Below, piece after piece: positions 802-58,288 of a stretch of DNA of 64,000 nucleotides (position 1 is the stretch's first letter; every line of letters begins with the position of its first letter). Below the pieces are notes generated by a model. That model was given only the letters and a program-made list of their open reading frames with translations, searched no databases and was not told the origin of the DNA. The translations under genes were made by a program, and so were the position numbers. The stretch lies in NCBI RefSeq assembly GCF_020510425.1, contig NZ_JAHBAH010000001.1:310001-374000 (forward strand). The letters run 5' to 3'. This stretch comes from Quatrionicoccus australiensis. GTDB taxonomy: Bacteria > Pseudomonadota > Gammaproteobacteria > Burkholderiales > Rhodocyclaceae.

Positions 802-1395
802 TTACGACCAGCGCGCCAACGCCCTTTCAATCCGCGAGGAAAAGCGCCGAACCTGAGCCGAATCGAGCTTCTCCGCCTGATACAGCGACAGCATCCCGAA
901 GCGGCAAGCCGGCGCGCAAGTGCCCAGCAACGCCGTTTTCAGGATGCGCCTGACCGGCTGCCACAGCAGCAGGCGATCCACCCACCACGGCGACCCGAGC
1001 GAAGTGATCGCCAGCGCGTGCTTCAGATTGAGCAGGCGCGGCCGAATCGGCCCCAGATCGCTGGCATGATCGTAAGCCACCCCAGGCCCCCAGACCCGGT
1101 CAAACCAGCCCTTCAAGATTGCCGGAAAACCGAACCACCAGGTCGGAAAAACCAGCACCAAAGCCTCAGCGGCGAGCAAGCGCTCAACCTGCCCGGCGAT
1201 GGCAGAAGCATCGAAAGGCAAACGGTAATAACTCTGCCGCTCGGCCTCGGTCAGCACCGGAGAAAACCCGGCGTCGTAAAGGTTCTCGACCACGACCTCG
1301 TGACCGGCGGCGGTCAGTGATTTGATGGCGACCTGTGCCAGGGCTTGGGTCAGGCTGTCGGGGAGAGGGTGAGCGATGACGACTAGGGTCTTCAT
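802..1395 (-). CDS. Flavodoxin-fold NAD(P)H oxidoreductase (quinone reductase/KefF-MdaB type)
   Basis: 197 residues. The N-terminus (KTLVVIAHPLPDS) is the phosphate-binding loop of flavodoxin-like NAD(P)H dehydrogenases, and FPTWWFGFPAILKGWFDRV around residue 85 is the conserved flavin-contacting segment of the NQO1/KefF/MdaB family. Such enzymes use FAD or FMN for two-electron reduction of quinones. The protein is cytoplasmic and stands alone on the minus strand, convergent with the glutaredoxin-like gene. The substrate cannot be read from the sequence. Confidence 0.85.
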   Translation of the reverse strand: MKTLVVIAHPLPDSLTQALAQVAIKSLTAAGHEVVVENLYDAGFSPVLTEAERQSYYRLPFDASAIAGQVERLLAAEALVLVFPTWWFGFPAILKGWFDRVWGPGVAYDHASDLGPIRPRLLNLKHALAITSLGSPWWVDRLLLWQPVRRILKTALLGTCAPACRFGMLSLYQAEKLDSAQVRRFSSRIERALARWS

Positions 1396-1485
1396 GGGGA
1401 ATGTCTAAAACCGAGCAACTGTTGAGAAGCAGAATATGCCGCATCGCCGCAAGCATCGCACCAGAAACACGAGCGGCTCCCCCGC

Positions 1486-2665: not shown

Positions 2666-4228
2666 CTATTGCTGAGATAGTAATTTTGAAACCAGACTAA
2701 CAAGAGACTCAAACTCACCTGAATGAGCTTGACACACACCTGTTGTAAAAAAATTAAGGCAAACCTTCTGATCTAGGCCAAGATTATTCGAAATTTCAAA
2801 AAATTCGTTATGTTTTCCGGCTTGAAGACCGTACTCAAGTACATCAGACAAAACATCACAATCGCTTGATGTAAGTTTTGATAGCAATTCAAGACAGCTC
2901 GTGCTTTTCTGAACAATCCATGCTTCTGGCCAAGTATCGCCAGGCAAATAGGCAATGCGATTTTTATACCAACCAACAAAATCAATTCCAATATTTTCGG
3001 CCATTTTTTCGGCGTGCTTCATATTATTATTTTCATTGTTTCGCTGATCGCCATCGAATATAGCCAAAGTCTGTCGTTCTTCACCGCGAATGTAAATTGC
3101 AGCTAGTTGCCTAGCAAGGGCTGAGGCAGAACCAATTACTGTTATCTTTACTCGAGAACGAATGTGTGCCGGCAAGCTTGATTGCAATAGCGATTTCGCC
3201 ACCTCATCCTCAACCATAATATCAATTTCATTACCAGGAATAGCCGCCATCTTTGCAAAAGCGAATTCAGACGAAATGGAGTCCGTTAGTTTAGTCTTTC
3301 CATTTATGCACTCAACGAAATATCTAGCATCATATGGCAAACAGTCGAATATTTCCTTGGAGTGAGTAGTGCATATAACTTGCGTGTGTGTTTCCAAACA
3401 CACGTCTTTAAGCCTATCAATAAATTTCCTTTGAGCTTCAGCATGAAGTCCAAGCTCAACCTCATCCATGACAAGCAGAGCCCCTTCTCCACAAGAGTAA
3501 ATGGTCGAAAATATTTCAAACAGTGCATTCTCTCCGGCCCCCATATTAAATCCAGAGTAGACTGAATTATTAATTTTAACGAGCGGGAGGCTATATTTTG
3601 TATGACGAAGGTAGCTAAACTTGTCATAAGATTTATTTAAAATATAGCCAACCGCATCCTTTACCTTATCCTCCCAACCCATAGGCTGAGTATCTTTAAA
3701 AACTCTGGAATAAGAACGTGACTGGCTTCTCTCGCTATGAGGAACAATTCTTTCGATGCCAAGAAACACCACATCCCGCTTAACGCGATCAGCATAGTTA
3801 TTCCACTTCCCCCCTTTGCTTTTCCAGCGGCGTTGATGCCCAACTCCTCTTCCATCAGGAAACGAATCTGTTTTTCTCCACTTGTCATAAGCAATACCGT
3901 AGCGAATATCAATCCCTTGAGGTGGCACTTCTTCTGGATGCTGGACGAAAAAGTCTGAAAATGTAAAGTAAGAAACTTTTCTCTTTGGAAGCTTAAATCC
4001 ATTTCGATTATTGTGAAATGCACAACATGCCAAAGCCAAAATTGTTGACTTTCCCGCACCATTTTTCCCAGCAATTGCTGTAATTGGAAAGTTAAAATTA
4101 ATGTCTAGTGAATTTATCCCTCGCAATTCGCCTTCTTTGAGAAAAATTCTACGCAAGGCAGCGTGAGCATAATCATTTAAGTAACGATTACGGAGCGTTT
4201 TATCTTTCTGACTCTCTCGATATTTCAT
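2666..4228 (-). CDS. OLD-family ATP-dependent endonuclease (ABC-type ATPase plus TOPRIM)
   Basis: 520 residues. Walker A GKNGAGKST lies at about 54-62, an ABC-signature-like FNMGAGENA at 227-235, Walker B LLVMDE at 251-256 and an H-loop CTTHS at 286-290. A C-terminal TOPRIM-like region follows, with VEDE near 339-342 and FDGD at 391-394. This is the layout of OLD/GajA-type nucleases, which couple an ATPase to DNA cleavage and often serve in anti-phage defence. The gene is distinctly AT-rich against its GC-rich surroundings, which suggests horizontal transfer. Its 5' neighbour is the remains of a NERD/UvrD helicase (4273-4600). A stand-alone OLD protein is the alternative to a Gabija-like origin. 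Confidence 0.85.
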   Translation of the reverse strand: MKYRESQKDKTLRNRYLNDYAHAALRRIFLKEGELRGINSLDINFNFPITAIAGKNGAGKSTILALACCAFHNNRNGFKLPKRKVSYFTFSDFFVQHPEEVPPQGIDIRYGIAYDKWRKTDSFPDGRGVGHQRRWKSKGGKWNNYADRVKRDVVFLGIERIVPHSERSQSRSYSRVFKDTQPMGWEDKVKDAVGYILNKSYDKFSYLRHTKYSLPLVKINNSVYSGFNMGAGENALFEIFSTIYSCGEGALLVMDEVELGLHAEAQRKFIDRLKDVCLETHTQVICTTHSKEIFDCLPYDARYFVECINGKTKLTDSISSEFAFAKMAAIPGNEIDIMVEDEVAKSLLQSSLPAHIRSRVKITVIGSASALARQLAAIYIRGEERQTLAIFDGDQRNNENNNMKHAEKMAENIGIDFVGWYKNRIAYLPGDTWPEAWIVQKSTSCLELLSKLTSSDCDVLSDVLEYGLQAGKHNEFFEISNNLGLDQKVCLNFFTTGVCQAHSGEFESLVSLVSKLLSQQ

Positions 4229-5446: not shown

Positions 5447-7411
5447 TCAGGCGCCGAGTGAGGGGCCGCTGTGCGCGGCGCTCATGAACTGGCGGCGAAA
5501 ATCGGCTTCGCAGACCGGTCGACCGCTGAGAAAACCCTGATGCACGTCGCAGACCAGGTCGCGCAGCATCAGTAGCTGGCCCTCGGTTTCGACACCTTCG
5601 GCGACGACTTCGAGGCCGAGGTTGTGGGCCATGACGATAATCGCCGGCACCAGCGCCGAAGCACCGGTGTAATTGCCTTCTTCGTCGATCAGCGACATGA
5701 CGAAGCTGCGGTCGATCTTGAGGCTGTTGAAGGGCAGCCGGTGCAGGTAGGAAAGCGACGAGTAGCCGGTGCCGAAATCGTCGAGCGCCAGCCGGAAGCC
5801 GTGCCGGCGCATCGCATGCAGGGTGTCGACGTGGTCGCCTTCGGCCTGCAGCAGCATCGACTCGGTGACTTCGAGTTCAATCTGGGCGGGCGCCACGCCA
5901 TGTCGCGCGCAAACCGAGATCACACGCTCCAGCAATTTGCCGTTCCAGAACTGGCGTGGCGAGAGATTGACCGCCATGCGCAGCGGCCGGGCCGAGCAAC
6001 GGTTCCAGCCGGCCAGGCAGGTGATCGCCTGTTCCAGCACCCAGTCGCCGAGCGGCACGATGAGGCCGGTTTCTTCGGCAACCGAGATGAAGCGCTCGGG
6101 CGGAATCCACTGTTCGCCATCCCGCCAGCGCAACAGCGCCTCGGCACCGAGCAGTTCGCCACTGGCGGTATCGAACTGCGGCTGATAGTGCAGCTCGAAC
6201 GCCCGCTGCTCGATGGCCAGACGCAGGCGGGCCTCGATCGAGGCCCGCTGCAGCACGCGTTCCTTCATCAGCGGCGTATGCCGGCAAACCCGGCCACCGC
6301 CCTGCCCCTTGGCCGCGTACATCGCAGTATCGGCATTGCGCAGCAGCTGTTCGGCATCCTCGGCATCGTTCGGATAAATGCTCAGGCCGATGCTGGCGCC
6401 AACATGCAGGTGGTTGCCGTCGGTGACGAAAGGCGCGTTGAGCTGGTCAAGAAAAAGCAGCGCCCGCGCCTCGGCAAGCGCCGGATTGACCAGGCCGGGC
6501 AGGAGGACGATGAACTCGTCGCCGCCCTGGCGCACCAGCGTGTCTTCGTCCCGCGTCACGGTACGCAGGCGGGCCGCGACTTCCTGCAACAAATGGTCGC
6601 CCAGACGATGGCCGAGCGAGTCGTTGATGTCCTTGAAGCGGTCGAGATCGATAAACAACAGCGCACAACCGCCCTCACCGGACATCGCCAAAGCCAGCCG
6701 CTCGGCGAGCATGAAGCGATTGGCTAGGCCGGTCAGCCGGTCGTGCTCGACGAGATAGCGCATTTCATCTTCATGCAGCTTGCGCTCGGTAATATCGGTC
6801 ACCGATCCGGCCATCTGGTAGGCGACACCATGCCGGTCGCGTACCGCGATGCCGCGCGAGGCAATCCAGCGGTATTCGCCATTGCTCGCCCGGACCCGGT
6901 ATTCGCAATAAAAGAACGGCGTGCGTGCTTTCAGGTGATCGGCCACCGTCCGGTTGTAATGCGCCCTGTCCTCTGGATGCACCAGTTCCAGCCAGGCATG
7001 CGTGTCGGGCAGGAAGTTCTCGCTGTAGCCAAGGATTTCGAGCAGGCGGGCGCCCACGTTAAGGCGCTTGCTGACCGGATCCCATTCCCAGAAACCGTCA
7101 TGGGCGGCTTCCATGGCGAGGCGGTAGGCGCGCTGCGTCGTCCATAGACGCCGCAACTGGATAGCGACGAAATAGCTGCCGCAGAGGATGCACAGGGCCA
7201 GGCTGCCGCGCACCAGCGGCGAAGAATGCGCCAGCCAGAGCAACAGGAGCAGCCCGCCCAGCACCAGCAAGGCACCGACCTGCAAGCCGATCATCCGGCT
7301 GACCGGGCGACGCAAGCCCTCCGCAGCCACGTTGCCGGCAGCAATCTGGTGAGGCAGAGTGGAATGGTCGCGAATCGACATTTGTCTGGTGGTTACGAGA
7401 TGGTTGGCCAT
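5447..7411 (-). CDS. PAS-GGDEF-EAL c-di-GMP turnover protein
   Basis: 654 residues. Two membrane segments lie at about 43-85, then a PAS/PAC sensor (about 95-215), a GGDEF domain with intact RQGGDEF near 297, and an EAL domain with AEALLRW near 427 and a DDFGTGYSSL loop. Both catalytic signatures are intact, so the protein could make or break cyclic di-GMP; in many such fusions EAL dominates. Neither in-frame start (7411 or MSIRD at 7381) has a clear Shine-Dalgarno. It is divergent from a solute-binding protein and second cyclase at 7.8-10.2 kb, which may share its regulatory role. Confidence 0.9.
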   Translation of the reverse strand: MANHLVTTRQMSIRDHSTLPHQIAAGNVAAEGLRRPVSRMIGLQVGALLVLGGLLLLLWLAHSSPLVRGSLALCILCGSYFVAIQLRRLWTTQRAYRLAMEAAHDGFWEWDPVSKRLNVGARLLEILGYSENFLPDTHAWLELVHPEDRAHYNRTVADHLKARTPFFYCEYRVRASNGEYRWIASRGIAVRDRHGVAYQMAGSVTDITERKLHEDEMRYLVEHDRLTGLANRFMLAERLALAMSGEGGCALLFIDLDRFKDINDSLGHRLGDHLLQEVAARLRTVTRDEDTLVRQGGDEFIVLLPGLVNPALAEARALLFLDQLNAPFVTDGNHLHVGASIGLSIYPNDAEDAEQLLRNADTAMYAAKGQGGGRVCRHTPLMKERVLQRASIEARLRLAIEQRAFELHYQPQFDTASGELLGAEALLRWRDGEQWIPPERFISVAEETGLIVPLGDWVLEQAITCLAGWNRCSARPLRMAVNLSPRQFWNGKLLERVISVCARHGVAPAQIELEVTESMLLQAEGDHVDTLHAMRRHGFRLALDDFGTGYSSLSYLHRLPFNSLKIDRSFVMSLIDEEGNYTGASALVPAIIVMAHNLGLEVVAEGVETEGQLLMLRDLVCDVHQGFLSGRPVCEADFRRQFMSAAHSGPSLGA

Positions 7412-33620: not shown

Positions 33621-35932
33621 GAAATAGACGCAAGGTTCTGATAATAGAACGTTAGCGCATGGAGTTCGAAAGGCTGGTCGTTGGTTGCCCTAATCACTGG
33701 CGCAATACCAACAGAAACAACCTCTACGGCTGTCATTTCACCCGGCCTTGTATCTCCAGTCATTCTAATCTCTGGAGTGATTGCAGACGGATTGCGAGAA
33801 TCAAACTTTATCTGCATGTCAGCAGAGCCGATCATCACAGAATCCATGCCGAGAATCTGCTTCATGACACCCGGCGTCTTGAAGTCAAGATATGGGAATT
33901 CGATAGTTACATCGAAATCAACGCCAGCATCAGAATACGCGTTTTCATCCAGCTTATAAACGGTGTTGCCTGCGCGGAAATACAAGTCTCCGTCAAGCTC
34001 CGTAACGTCTGTGATGTTGAACGGAAAAACATACTTTGACCAAGCCGAGATTTTAGACGTTCTGGAGAATGAATAAACGAACGCTACATTTCCGTTCATG
34101 GCCCAATACTGACCGCCACCACGGAAATAGAATGCACGAATATCGTCATTAACACCAAAAGACTGCTTTATCATTGAATCAATCGGCGATCCTGCGTCGA
34201 CGTCAATCATGTTCCCGGTGGTTGATTGCGTCGTGATAGAACGAATTCCGTCATAGCTGGTAAAGAACACATCGCCTGCCATGTTTGACGCACCATGCGG
34301 ATATGGACAGCCTGCGTCAATGCCTTGGATAAACGACATTTTTGCAGGATCAGGATCAACAGACCAAACCTGCGCAGAGTCCCGGAAAAACACAACGAGA
34401 TTACCGGAATATTCGCCTAGCGCGGTTGGGTTGGTTGATCCTGATTGCTGAATGCCAACACCAAGGAAACCAGCATCGCTGGATTCAGTCCAATTGCGCG
34501 GATTCGATGTTTTGCAGAAGCGGACAACTTCATCATCCACAGCAAATATCTTTGACGATTTCTTGATTACTGCTGACGTATGCGGGCAATTTTCGTCGTA
34601 AATCTCTGTACCACGGCAAGTGTATTCAGGGATGGCAACGCAGGTGTATTGCGCCTTTGCTCGGCACGTATAGACGGCAGGCGTTCGGCACGTAAAAACA
34701 ACCGTTCCATTGGTTACGGTTGCGCCTGGCGTAGTCGGCCAAGTTGGCTGAGTTCCTGCGGTTGTTCCTGCGGTCGTTACTTCGTACAGCAGGCCGTTTG
34801 CAATGACCGGGCGACGGAAAGCACCAAGAGTAAGCGCAGTTGTCGCCGCCCATGCGGTAGCAACAGAATCATACTCTGTTACGGTTGATCCTACCGTGGT
34901 AGGCCAAGTTGGCTCAACACCAGAAGTCGCACCAGCAGTGGTTACTTCATACAGGTAATTGGTTGTTGAGCTAGTCTTTCGGATTGATCCTAGCGTGACG
35001 TTTTCCGGAGGAAAAACAGTTGAGTAAGCAACGCAAGTAAATACAACCGTTCCGCTTGTTACCGTGTTTCCAACGATAACGGGCCATGTCGGCTCTACAT
35101 TTCCACAGCGTCCAGCAGTGGTTACTTTGTACAGGTACGTGTTGCTAGTTGTTGGATGACGGATTGCGTCAAGCACCAAATCCTCATACTTCAAAAATCC
35201 AGATTCTGAATATCCAGAGTCATAGACAGTATCGCCAAGCACAGAAGGCCACGTAGGCTCAACTGGCCCGGAGAAACCAGCAATTGAGCACTGATATACA
35301 AAACCAGTACTAGCAGAAGGCTTAAACGCATCTCCAAGCGTCTTTTCAGATAATGAAGACCACGAAGGATACGAAGCCTCAAGTTCTGCAATTGATGCGC
35401 CAATAGTCGTAGGCCAAGCTGGCTCAACGTTCGACGCAACACCAGAAACAGATACCTCATAGCGCAGTCCATTGTTAGTAACTGGCCGGATTACATCGCC
35501 AAGTGTCGTAACTAGGTAAGAATCCCATGGCGTAAGAGATGCCGGATTGTCAATGTAGTGGTGCTTGATTTCACCGTTGTTGTATTCGACGGACACATAC
35601 AGGTAGCCGTTGAATACATCGGCATAGTGGATGTTTTTGACCTCTACGGCTGCATTTGTCGGGTGCGTTATCTTGTTCGCAACAAAGCGCGAGTCTGCAT
35701 GCGTAACTGAACCCGTTGCATAGAACGTGTTTAGCTTTCCGCCAGCAGAGCGCAGCCCTTTTGTACCTGATTCGAGCGTCGTAACCAGAGACAGGCCGGG
35801 GCGCTTTCGGATCGTCTTGCCCGTAGTGACATAACAGTTCGTCATGTCGCGCAGTCGGTTTGCGTCAGATACAGATGCACCCTTGCGAAGATCAAGGCCG
35901 CTTGAGAAATCGCTAAATGTGATTGCGCCCAT
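33617..35932 (-). CDS. Large phage head-tail/tail protein with internal repeats
   Basis: 771 residues. It begins with FSSGLDLRKGASVSDANRLR and a KRPGLSLV segment, the common opening of podovirus stabilisation/tail hub proteins. From about residue 130 to 410 it carries five copies of a 40-60 residue unit with the core V-E-P-T-W-P-x3-G-x-T, each preceded by a YEV-TTAG-type strand. Then come three short YTC-containing repeats (about 415-440). The rest is beta-rich and looks like a propeller or tail hub. The repeats may be surface-binding modules; that is inference. Confidence 0.7.
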   Translation of the reverse strand: MGAITFSDFSSGLDLRKGASVSDANRLRDMTNCYVTTGKTIRKRPGLSLVTTLESGTKGLRSAGGKLNTFYATGSVTHADSRFVANKITHPTNAAVEVKNIHYADVFNGYLYVSVEYNNGEIKHHYIDNPASLTPWDSYLVTTLGDVIRPVTNNGLRYEVSVSGVASNVEPAWPTTIGASIAELEASYPSWSSLSEKTLGDAFKPSASTGFVYQCSIAGFSGPVEPTWPSVLGDTVYDSGYSESGFLKYEDLVLDAIRHPTTSNTYLYKVTTAGRCGNVEPTWPVIVGNTVTSGTVVFTCVAYSTVFPPENVTLGSIRKTSSTTNYLYEVTTAGATSGVEPTWPTTVGSTVTEYDSVATAWAATTALTLGAFRRPVIANGLLYEVTTAGTTAGTQPTWPTTPGATVTNGTVVFTCRTPAVYTCRAKAQYTCVAIPEYTCRGTEIYDENCPHTSAVIKKSSKIFAVDDEVVRFCKTSNPRNWTESSDAGFLGVGIQQSGSTNPTALGEYSGNLVVFFRDSAQVWSVDPDPAKMSFIQGIDAGCPYPHGASNMAGDVFFTSYDGIRSITTQSTTGNMIDVDAGSPIDSMIKQSFGVNDDIRAFYFRGGGQYWAMNGNVAFVYSFSRTSKISAWSKYVFPFNITDVTELDGDLYFRAGNTVYKLDENAYSDAGVDFDVTIEFPYLDFKTPGVMKQILGMDSVMIGSADMQIKFDSRNPSAITPEIRMTGDTRPGEMTAVEVVSVGIAPVIRATNDQPFELHALTFYYQNLASIS

Positions 35933-55602: not shown

Positions 55603-55642
55603 CTAACTTTTGCCTAGTATCTCCATGAAGAATGGAGAAAGA

Positions 55643-56077: not shown

Positions 56078-56314
56078 ATGGCATCTAACGTAAAGCTTTA
56101 TGACCTGTCTAGATCGAATCACGAAGCGGCCAAAGAGGCGCTGACTAATGCCTTGAGCGTTTGCAGAGAAAGGGATATAGATGGAGCGATCATCATCCTA
56201 TCGCGCAGGGATGGCGGAAACTCGACCGTTATCTCTGGCGGCGCTCTGTCAAAGCATGACAAAGCCAACCTTGAGCTGTTCAAGGTTAAGCTGCACATGG
56301 CGATAGAAACATAG
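56078..56314 (+). CDS. Hypothetical protein downstream of the repressor
   Basis: 78 residues: MASNVKLYDLSRSNHEAAKE, then VCRERDIDGAIIILSRRDGG. Not recognised. It shares a transcript direction with the repressor and ends at a terminator, so may be a lysogenic conversion gene. A start further upstream (56039) is possible. Confidence 0.55.
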   Translation: MASNVKLYDLSRSNHEAAKEALTNALSVCRERDIDGAIIILSRRDGGNSTVISGGALSKHDKANLELFKVKLHMAIET

Positions 56315-56400
56315 GGGATATTCCGGCGAGCAAAGAACAGCTGGCCCCGAGTGCGGAGCAACGCACTCAGGAATGCATGACGGTGCGTTCCCCTCTCCAG

Positions 56401-56421
56401 CCCCGTTTCGACGGGGTTTTT
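56401..56421 (+). terminator. Terminator of the repressor transcript
   Basis: Perfect CCCCGT-TTCG-ACGGGG stem with TTTTTA. A further perfect stem GAGTGCG/CGCACTC lies just upstream (56350-56369). Confidence 0.88.
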
Positions 56422-56532
56422 ATTGTACTTTTTTTGCCATGACAATCAATTAGACTAAGGTAATACAACACAAACAATTGTTAAAACGCAAACGCAGTGT
56501 CATGATGACGTTTCACTAACAAGGAGGTGTTT

Positions 56533-56718: not shown

Positions 56719-56761
56719 AAACCCAAAAAAGGGTTTGACAAGACCCTAATTCGGGTTTAAT
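56719..56761 (+). promoter_or_regulatory. PL-like early promoter with OL-like operator pair
   Basis: Operator 3 (56719-56736, AAACCC-AAAAAA-GGGTTT) overlaps the -35 TTGACA (56735-56740). Operator 4 (56743-56756, ACCC-TAATTC-GGGT) lies between it and the -10 TTTAAT (56756-56761; 15-nt spacer, or TAATCT at 17). Same operator as at 55565. Confidence 0.75.
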
Positions 56762-56928
56762 CTACACCCATCGCAGCAAACAACGCACCGCAGGAAAAAC
56801 CCGCGAGTCGGGAATCAAGTTAGGCAAGACGGCAGTGTCCTTAACCGGCGCGGCATGAGTCGAAACAAGAAATACCTGGCGTTGAGCAGCGCAGAAGCAC
56901 AAGCCGATTAACTAGATGGGAGAACGAG

Positions 56929-57135
56929 ATGGCAAGCGACAGAACAATGTACAGACTGCACTCGCCGTATGAGTGGTCGTGCATCCAAGCTGAGCGCAAA
57001 GCAAACAAGGAGCGCGAAGAGTTTGCAATCTTGGCGGAGTTGGTTATTGGGCATGTCCATCCGTCAAACATTGGCCCCCTTCCTCCGAGTCCCGATGTAT
57101 TGCGCAGAAAAGCGCGTCAGATTGGATTGATTTGA
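56929..57135 (+). CDS. Hypothetical early phage protein
   Basis: 68 residues: SPYEWSCIQAERKANKEREE, then LPPSPDVLRRKARQIGLI. Not recognised. First gene after the PL-like promoter; GGGAGAACGAG before the ATG. The 165-base leader may hold antitermination signals. Confidence 0.6.
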   Translation: MASDRTMYRLHSPYEWSCIQAERKANKEREEFAILAELVIGHVHPSNIGPLPPSPDVLRRKARQIGLI

Positions 57136-57456
57136 GTCTCTACCACCAAGGCCAAGCGCCTTGCTAGTGAAGATTTAAGCAGCACCGCTCTTTAGGCCAC
57201 CAACACGGCCCGCCATCCTCAGACCAACGAGGACCGCGACAATTAGACAGTAATGAAACCGGCAAGCTCCCTGCCCCACGTAACGCACTCAAGCCAATGA
57301 GTACGGGTTCCTAGTGGATTTAAGCGGATGACGAGCATAGCGAGCCGGGTAGCAAATCTAAGTGACCGTGTATCAGGCGGTGGCGGACAGTTAATCACTG
57401 GTTGGACTGGCGATCCATTTGCTCAACAAGTTAGCCATACACAAACGTGAATTACC
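57136..57456 (+). other. Gene-free, hairpin-rich stretch of the early operon
   Basis: 321 bases with no coding pattern but several short perfect stems: CAAGGC/GCCTTG near 57145-57161, TCCTC/GAGGA near 57214-57231, ACTCA/TGAGT near 57288-57303. It also has two copies of GATTTAAGC (57172 and 57319 regions). Possible structured RNA. Confidence 0.5.
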
Positions 57457-57554
57457 GCCGATTCCTTCGGGAGTCGGCACATTGAAGGCGAAATATGCGC
57501 ATACGGATGCCAAGCCGTGATTATCTGGATTTCGATGCCAGACGCCTTCAATGT
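57457..57554 (+). ncRNA. Structured intercistronic RNA element A
   Basis: A TTCG-capped 9-bp hairpin (57457-57478) abuts without a gap a 12-bp closing stem, ACATTGAAGGCG (57479-57490) with CGCCTTCAATGT (57543-57554). The 52-base interior can form further arms (ACGG/CCGT, TCTGG/CCAGA). It ends 22 bases before the next start codon and could control its translation. Confidence 0.5.
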
Positions 57555-57576
57555 GAATAACCAACTGGAGGACGAT

Positions 57577-57759
57577 ATGACGCAGTACGAACGCGAAGAA
57601 GAGCAGATAGAGCGCGACTTGCGCGAAGGCTTGCTTTCTCAAGGCGAGTACAGCCGAGCGCTTCAATGCATGCAACGCGACTACAGAGATGAAATGCGCG
57701 GCCTTGCGGAAGATGCGGCGGAACGAGCATACAACGATTTCATGGATGGTCGTTGGTAA
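57577..57759 (+). CDS. Hypothetical early phage protein
   Basis: 60 residues, highly charged and helical (YEREEEQIERDLREGLLSQG). GGAGG before ATG 57577, so a longer frame from 57517, which would run through element A, is rejected. Not recognised. Confidence 0.6.
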   Translation: MTQYEREEEQIERDLREGLLSQGEYSRALQCMQRDYRDEMRGLAEDAAERAYNDFMDGRW

Positions 57760-57765
57760 CACCAA

Positions 57766-57857
57766 GCCGCTTCACTGAGGCGGCAAATCGGATGGCCTGC
57801 ACTCTCAAAAGGAGAAACTGCTACGGTCGACAAACCAACCTGCGGGCCATCCGATTT
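57766..57857 (+). ncRNA. Structured intercistronic RNA element B
   Basis: A 5-bp hairpin GCCGC/GCGGC (57766-57784) directly abuts a perfect 13-bp stem, AAATCGGATGGCC (57785-57797) with GGCCATCCGATTT (57845-57857). The 47-base interior can form TCTC/GAGA. Same plan and place as element A, 24 bases before a start codon, but different sequence. Confidence 0.5.
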
Positions 57858-57881
57858 GACTGATAGGAGATAGAGATAGAG

Positions 57882-58127
57882 ATGGAGAACGACGGTCGGT
57901 ATCCATACACATATGCAGCAGATTACGTTCGCGGACTTGCTGGATACACAGAAGGTGGAACAAAACTTTCTCGCTCTGATGCAAGTCAGGTTAGACAGGG
58001 TATCGCCAAGGCAATCGGGGTTGATGACAAAGAGCTTGCTGAGAAGCTTGCTAGATACTACCTGAATAACCAAGATGTTTTGGGCGATGAAAGTGCAAAG
58101 CAGTTAGCAAAGGTTTTTGGTTACTAA
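57882..58127 (+). CDS. Hypothetical early phage protein
   Basis: 81 residues. KAIGVDDKELAEKLARYYLN and SAKQLAKVFGY look like short helices of a small helical domain. TAGGAG lies upstream of the ATG at longish spacing. Not recognised. Confidence 0.6.
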   Translation: MENDGRYPYTYAADYVRGLAGYTEGGTKLSRSDASQVRQGIAKAIGVDDKELAEKLARYYLNNQDVLGDESAKQLAKVFGY

Positions 58128-58137
58128 CCGAGCATCA

Positions 58138-58196
58138 CCCGCAAGTATCCGCATAGGACGGGGTATTCACTCCAAGACTAGCCCAGGGCTTGCGGG
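58138..58196 (+). ncRNA. Structured intercistronic element C
   Basis: 8-bp stem CCCGCAAG (58138-58145) with CTTGCGGG (58189-58196) enclosing 43 bases. The following 90 bases to the next gene add ACGCT/AGCGT and TCGAG/CTCGA stems. Weaker relative of elements A and B. Confidence 0.4.
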
Positions 58197-58288
58197 AAAC
58201 ACGCTCAAAGCGTTCATGACGCAGAGAGTCGAGGGCGCGTATCTCGATGGCAGCCGGGAAATAGCGGCACTAATAACTGGAGAATGAT

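Follow-up and report, generated by a model that had tools for sequence, protein, structure and literature searches.

Phages of the T7 type carry RNase III processing sites between their early genes, formed by long helices under little sequence constraint, and RNase III sites consist of a duplex of about two helical turns. GOLLD and ROOL are structured RNAs of phage genomes, and skipping-rope, a phage motif in Rfam, has a stem over a large variable loop. To our knowledge, how the early leaders of proteobacterial phages exert control at the RNA level has been little studied outside the classical models. In the part of the published account on which we draw, the put RNA of HK022 (putL and putR) consists of two stem-loops over ~70 nt, with one copy on each of two divergent early transcripts and putR ~270 nt behind PR, and it binds the zinc-binding domain of the RNA polymerase beta' subunit and suppresses termination (PMC9378689).

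Here we analysed two elements, A and B, from the rightward early region of a Quatrionicoccus australiensis prophage, within a stretch of 64,000 nt called the window below. In each of them a hairpin (H1) adjoins a stem (H2) that encloses a variable interior. Like put, as far as that part of the account goes, this is an early-transcript RNA with two adjacent stem-loops and two related copies per phage; unlike put, both copies lie on one strand, the lengths range from 53 to 260 nt and the free H2 interior from 3 to 215 nt, and the two are set apart by this description, not by sequence. The long helices before successive early genes resemble the RNase III sites of T7-type phages, but here the long stem adjoins a separate H1 and encloses a variable interior. 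The element shares with skipping-rope a stem enclosing a large variable loop, and with GOLLD and ROOL that it is a structured RNA of phage genomes. A search of Rfam 15 at gathering score gave no match in the window and only three tRNAs in 11 loci, all of them in L134, and relaxed scans picked up other families only as weak matches. Among sub-threshold matches, positions 814-875 of L134 (- strand) resemble the Burkholderia anti-hemB RNA (26.7 bits, gathering 49.5, E 0.0023), and positions 3405-3497 of L140 match Twister-sister weakly (18.5 bits, gathering 34). No description of the element was recognised among open-access papers. The RNA family appears to be new, while its kind, a structured element of phage early leaders, is already known.

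Element A spans 57457-57555 (99 nt) and element B 57766-57858 (93 nt), both on the + strand, and in both of them H1 is followed by the H2 arm without any unpaired base between (Table 1). H2 of A is a perfect 13-bp stem (12 bp if the shared C at 57478 is assigned to H1), and H2 of B has 18 pairs, including one G-U. The small hairpin adjoining a closing stem, as given in a preliminary description of this DNA, is present in both elements beyond what shuffled sequences give; the stem of B is longer than the 12-13 perfect pairs described, and the bases under the stem, described there as about 50, number 52 in A and 39 in B. The distance from the stem end to the start codon, given there as 22-24 bases, is 21 nt in A and 23 nt in B. 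Unconstrained folding recovers A at -48.0 kcal/mol (z -5.28) and B at -48.1 kcal/mol (z -7.54), each equalled by 0 of 200 shuffles, and the + strand folds are more stable than those of the - strand (-38.2 for A and -44.6 for B). A scan of 51-64 kb places A and B in strongly structured + strand windows; other early segments are likewise structured, some more strongly, and further structured intergenic early segments on the + strand lie at 57130-57260 (z -4.0), 58115-58240 (z -3.2) and 56300-56440 (z -4.8).

Table 1. Features of elements A and B and of their surroundings in the window
Feature	Position	Strand	Basis
A, hairpin H1, 9 bp, loop UUCG	57457..57478	+	folding; covered by the R2 match, 41.7 bits
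A, H2 5' arm, first base common to H1	57478..57490	+	perfect inverted repeat; R2 match
A, variable interior, 52 nt	57491..57542	+	between arms; does not align to most members
A, H2 3' arm	57543..57555	+	inverted repeat; R2 match
B, hairpin H1, 8 bp, loop ACU	57766..57784	+	folding, A/B alignment; basis of the 18.3-bit R2 match
B, H2 5' arm, first base common to H1	57784..57801	+	inverted repeat, one G-U
B, variable interior, 39 nt	57802..57840	+	between arms
B, H2 3' arm	57841..57858	+	inverted repeat, one G-U
Shine-Dalgarno-like GGAGG behind A	57567..57571	+	sequence; unpaired in centroid fold
Small early gene behind A, 60 aa	57577..57759	+	ORF; 28 relatives (protein search)
Shine-Dalgarno-like AGGAG behind B	57865..57869	+	sequence; unpaired
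Small early gene behind B, 81 aa	57882..58127	+	ORF; 165 relatives (protein search)
TTGACA, possible -35 of a rightward early promoter, inside an inverted repeat	56735..56740	+	sequence reading; lead only

We scanned the window for an H1 of at least 7 bp adjoining an H2 of at least 12 pairs without mismatch. With G-U pairs unrestricted, three + strand matches were obtained (A, B and 35555-35667), and the same criteria gave four matches in 20 shuffled windows, of which one strand was scanned. When H2 was limited to at most one G-U, A and B were the sole matches on both strands of the window. The stricter scan also gave five matches elsewhere (in L012, L020, L037 and twice in L060), and its reversed-sequence control, which probes helix order only, gave three. 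A scan for long stems gave 40 matches in the real and 40 in the reversed sequences, and it is uninformative because reversal preserves inverted repeats.

The preliminary description regarded A and B as unrelated in sequence and took the same shape to argue for selected structure. A MAFFT alignment in register contradicts the former: 13 of the 20 pairs are identical, both bases differ in the other seven, and all 20 still pair. H1 reads GCCG[A/C]UUC ... GAG[U/G]CGGC, with the same U-G pair in both elements. An end-to-end alignment of H1 and the first H2 arm is equalled by 10 and by 55 of 50000 pair-shuffled elements under two nulls, H1 alone by 255 and the H2 arm alone by 2183 of 50000, while a simple local alignment stands out less (112 of 5000 and 224 of 20000 shuffles). 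Kinship is therefore decided by the family found elsewhere. A and B represent diverged copies of one conserved RNA structure, and the argument from same shape and unrelated sequence was wrong for that reason.

The search pattern for further members consisted of H1 of A and B plus four bases, in which 'ANAT' is the sole part of H2. It matched 18 loci in IMG/VR, and nine of them carry a perfect H2 of 9-13 bp whose partner lies at most 280 bases downstream of H1. When the downstream sequence was shuffled, a stem as good was found in 0 of 200 shuffles for eight of these loci and in 1 of 200 for L126. The stem of L138 has one mismatch and fails the perfect-stem test (4 bp, reached in 200 of 200 shuffles), but this locus was retained because the mismatch is single and the covariance model R2 scores it at 48.5 bits. 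H2 is absent in the remaining eight pattern loci (L127, L128, L132, L133, L135, L137, L142 and L143), which were dropped. A structure scan revealed a second copy in L140, and a second pattern, with 22 loci (six known members, one new and 15 without the element), added L145, which has the same IMG source number as L141. One bacterial genome of the order, G542, gave a covariance match of 49.9 bits (E 1.1e-9; L183). In total, 13 elements besides A and B were found, in 11 IMG/VR viral records and this one bacterial genome. Since the pattern fixes most of H1, it accounts in part for the invariance of H1 and for its U-G pair.

The main type has the consensus GCCGCTTC-nnnn-GAGGCGGC, ACATTGAAGCGG ... 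CCGCTTCAATGTG; A carries ACATTGAAGGCG ... CGCCTTCAATGTG, and B has diverged from the main type. Members share blocks of 20-50 nt at the two arms, and the interiors are mostly unalignable, from 3 nt in L138 to 215 nt in the second L140 copy. The long members (135-260 nt) fold into further hairpins and are multibranched. H1 and H2 are recovered in 13 of 13 unconstrained folds, and the sense strand is the more stable in 12 of the 13. The window and L134 also have similar leaders, with 75% identity over 79 nt between 56793-56871 of the window and 2180-2249 of L134 (- strand). In the upstream part of this leader block, 56769-56785 of the window is identical over 17 nt to 7300-7316 of L060.

Covariation was evaluated on a core alignment of 11 distinct sequences with eight H1 pairs and nine outer H2 pairs, which was trimmed by hand in structural register and thereby favours the structure. 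In this alignment 99.5% of the cells are paired, and both-sided changes occur in 9 of 17 pairs (18 cells), compared with shuffled means of 2.4 pairs and 3.3 cells; 0 of 500 shuffles reach any of the measures, and slid partners give at most two both-sided pairs. The nine outside sequences taken alone contain four pairs with both-sided changes (0 of 500 shuffles). The preliminary description had named a lack of compensatory changes in homologous regions as its refutation, and such changes are present both between A and B and across the family. They bear out a selected structure on stronger evidence than the same-shape argument. The element is almost certainly an RNA structure under selection, and this structure, H1 adjoining H2 with a variable interior, recurs with compensatory changes in other proviruses.

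A covariance search was run with R2, which was built from nine outside elements and excludes A, B and L139. MAFFT misplaced H1 of A in alignment A5 and H2 of L139 in alignment A6, so A and B were left out from A6 on and L139 in A7. R2 retrieves A from the window at 41.7 bits (E 2.4e-9), in a match that spans the interior and includes the true H2. B is retrieved weakly, with 18.3 bits (E 0.004), by way of H1, and its own H2 is missed; the next-best match in the window scores 9.5 bits. The held-out L139 scores 18.1 bits. Because L137, L127 and L128, which have no H2, reach 25-28 bits from H1 alone, 18 bits for B or L139 is indecisive by itself, and B is counted as a member chiefly for its abutting H2, for lying next to A and for the comparison of A with B. 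Among 394 genomes of the order, R2 gave E <= 0.05 in 36, with about 20 expected by chance, and E < 1e-4 in the prophage's own genome and G542 only; five weaker genome matches (L185-L189) were inspected and are not convincing. Across 926 kb in 100 loci retrieved through gene homology, the top R2 match reached only 13.1 bits (E 1.4).

The exact 16-base pattern occurs in one of 399 genomes of the order, its own. Against 297 genomes of the family, the DNA of A and B gave, besides its own genome, three matches of 25-35 nt, all within the gene behind A, and the model R1 gave its own genome and one match at 23.6 bits (E 0.1) that has no such structure on inspection; R1 found nothing at E 10 over 100 phage loci. 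Neither the window region nor the L131 element matched phages or plasmids. The L140 region matched 76 phage records, with each of the best 25 of the 76 falling within the gene that follows the second element, and the L136 region gave one plasmid match, inside a gene. Relatives of the genes behind A and B lack the element in the 32 upstream regions folded (L011-L042, including some duplicate places), and R2 gave no match above 10.6 bits in L004, L005 and L012-L042. In L011 (1440-1840), L012 (4960-5340) and L004 (2600-3300), genes related to the one behind B lie between GCATAAC ... GTTATGC repeats, which we take to be attC-like, as if these were integron-type cassettes in a prophage region. An integron attC site is an imperfect stem with RYYYAAC ... 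GTTRRRY end boxes. No RYYYAAC/GTTRRRY boxes are visible by eye at the stems of A and B, which are perfect or nearly so, and an attC identity was rejected.

Several look-alikes were observed in the course of these searches. L060 carries a hairpin beside a long stem at 1348-1445 (+) and at 5968-6029 (-), with a different H1. The former contains TGCGCATCAGCCTGCGCA, the reverse complement of TGCGCAGGCTGATGCGCA, a word that is found again, bar its final base, within the interiors of L136 and the first L140 element. Stems of 17-18 bp over 54-57 nt occur at L017 5733-5822, L046 2373-2462 and L061 7076-7166, and T-rich tails follow those of L017 and L061. L134 has, on its - strand downstream of 1924, a further long stem (ACATCGAAGCCCTGTG ... 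CACAGGGCTTCGATGTG) with a different hairpin before it and three tRNA genes after it.

The rightward early region has a repressor-like HTH gene at 55610 and, from 60831 on, genes for an Erf-type annealing protein, an SSB and a 3'-5' exonuclease. The TTGACA listed in Table 1 lacks a good -10, and promoter scans do not list this site. In the predicted folds of both A and B, hardly any pairing involves the ribosome site or the start codon. In eight of 14 cases an ORF of at least 45 aa that has a ribosome-site-like sequence begins 13-35 nt behind the element; the other six elements have no such ORF within 50 nt (at 53-587 nt in L130, L131, L139, L141 and L183, and none in L134). The window and L140 each hold two copies before successive genes. 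A 21-codon ORF (57495-57560) starts inside the interior of A, with a possible ribosome site GAAGG within the H2 arm; a leader peptide was rejected, as this ORF has no ATG-started counterpart in B. A DNA operator was also considered and dropped.

From their position and strand we infer that the elements act in cis on the early transcript. The most likely role, which we put forward tentatively, is a processing and 5'-protecting element of the early mRNA. H1 could stack on H2 to form a nearly continuous helix, and while H2 alone has 9-18 bp, the helix with this assumed stacking would have 17-26 bp depending on the member (21-22 in A, 25-26 in B). Such a long helix might be cut in the manner of RNase III or might block exonucleases, and the early genes downstream would gain a stable structured 5' end beside a free ribosome-binding site. 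We prefer processing and 5' protection because it explains the copies before successive genes, the free interior with kept pairing and the open ribosome site. It is weakened by the six of 14 elements without an ORF within 50 nt, by a conservation of H1 (partly built in by the pattern) and outer H2 that seems to exceed what a plain duplex needs, and by L126, whose helix would reach only ~17 bp.

A nascent-RNA antiterminator resembling put, whose stem-loops bind polymerase or shield the leader from Rho and so allow read-through of the early operon, is a somewhat unlikely alternative that would account for the two adjacent stem-loops and for the six elements without a gene right behind. Of 11 leaders, five have promoter-like sequences (9-10 of 12 matches, counted without a shuffle control) at 224-414 nt upstream, comparable to the distance of putR from PR in the part of the account used here, but A lies ~690 nt behind a possible -10 in the window. 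An H2 interior of 3-215 nt also contrasts with the compact put fold of ~70 nt as described there, both copies in the window are on one strand with none on the - strand, and only one weak terminator-like site was found on the + strand between 57900 and 64000. A and B themselves are not among the terminator-like sites and no T run follows either stem, and they were rejected as intrinsic terminators. We consider it unlikely that the family represents a second natural kind of nascent-RNA antitermination, in which a conserved two-helix early-leader RNA, with a conserved H1/H2 junction and an H2 that accepts inserts, unrelated to put in sequence and copied before successive early genes of proteobacterial prophages, would by itself confer resistance to termination and decay on the host polymerase or the transcript. 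The placement of 8 of 14 elements near start codons, and a conserved H1/H2 junction beside a variable interior, would suit an element bound by a translational regulator of the downstream gene, either a phage or host protein or a ligand that the interior senses. Such regulation is decidedly unlikely, given the free ribosome site in A and B, the difference of the downstream genes between elements, and the absence of an H1/H2 switch pairing in A, B, L126, L134 and L139. An alternative pairing of H1 with H2 is long (7-8 bp) in some members only, and a switch of this type was rejected. Of the three functions suggested in the preliminary description (translational switch, processing site or stable small RNA), the translational switch is the least supported, with a free ribosome site and no switch pairing in A and B.

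The blocks of 20-50 nt shared at the arms by otherwise different sequences, together with the Erf-type annealing protein and SSB encoded in the window, would suit recombination, whereby short conserved blocks would serve annealing-type swaps of early genes or interiors and the RNA fold would be secondary. A recombination boundary does not need compensatory changes, and those at 9 of 17 pairs preserve pairing yet reduce identity, making this explanation quite improbable. It is highly improbable that the element is a stable small RNA, or that it belongs to a larger ornate RNA of prophages, with short forms of it in the window. The multibranch folds of the 135-260 nt members, T-loop-like words in the L140 region and the three tRNA genes that follow in L134 would fit an ornate RNA, whereas GOLLD, ROOL and similar Rfam families gave no match and A and B are short and directly followed by genes. 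The T-loop-like word GGTGCAAATCC occurs twice in untranslated stretches of L140, at 3439-3449 and 4116-4126.

The results show that look-alike hairpins in one window, assumed to be convergent, can turn out to be diverged copies. A covarying structure before early genes of several proviruses, with no Rfam match, is a concrete target for separating processing, stability, translation and antitermination.
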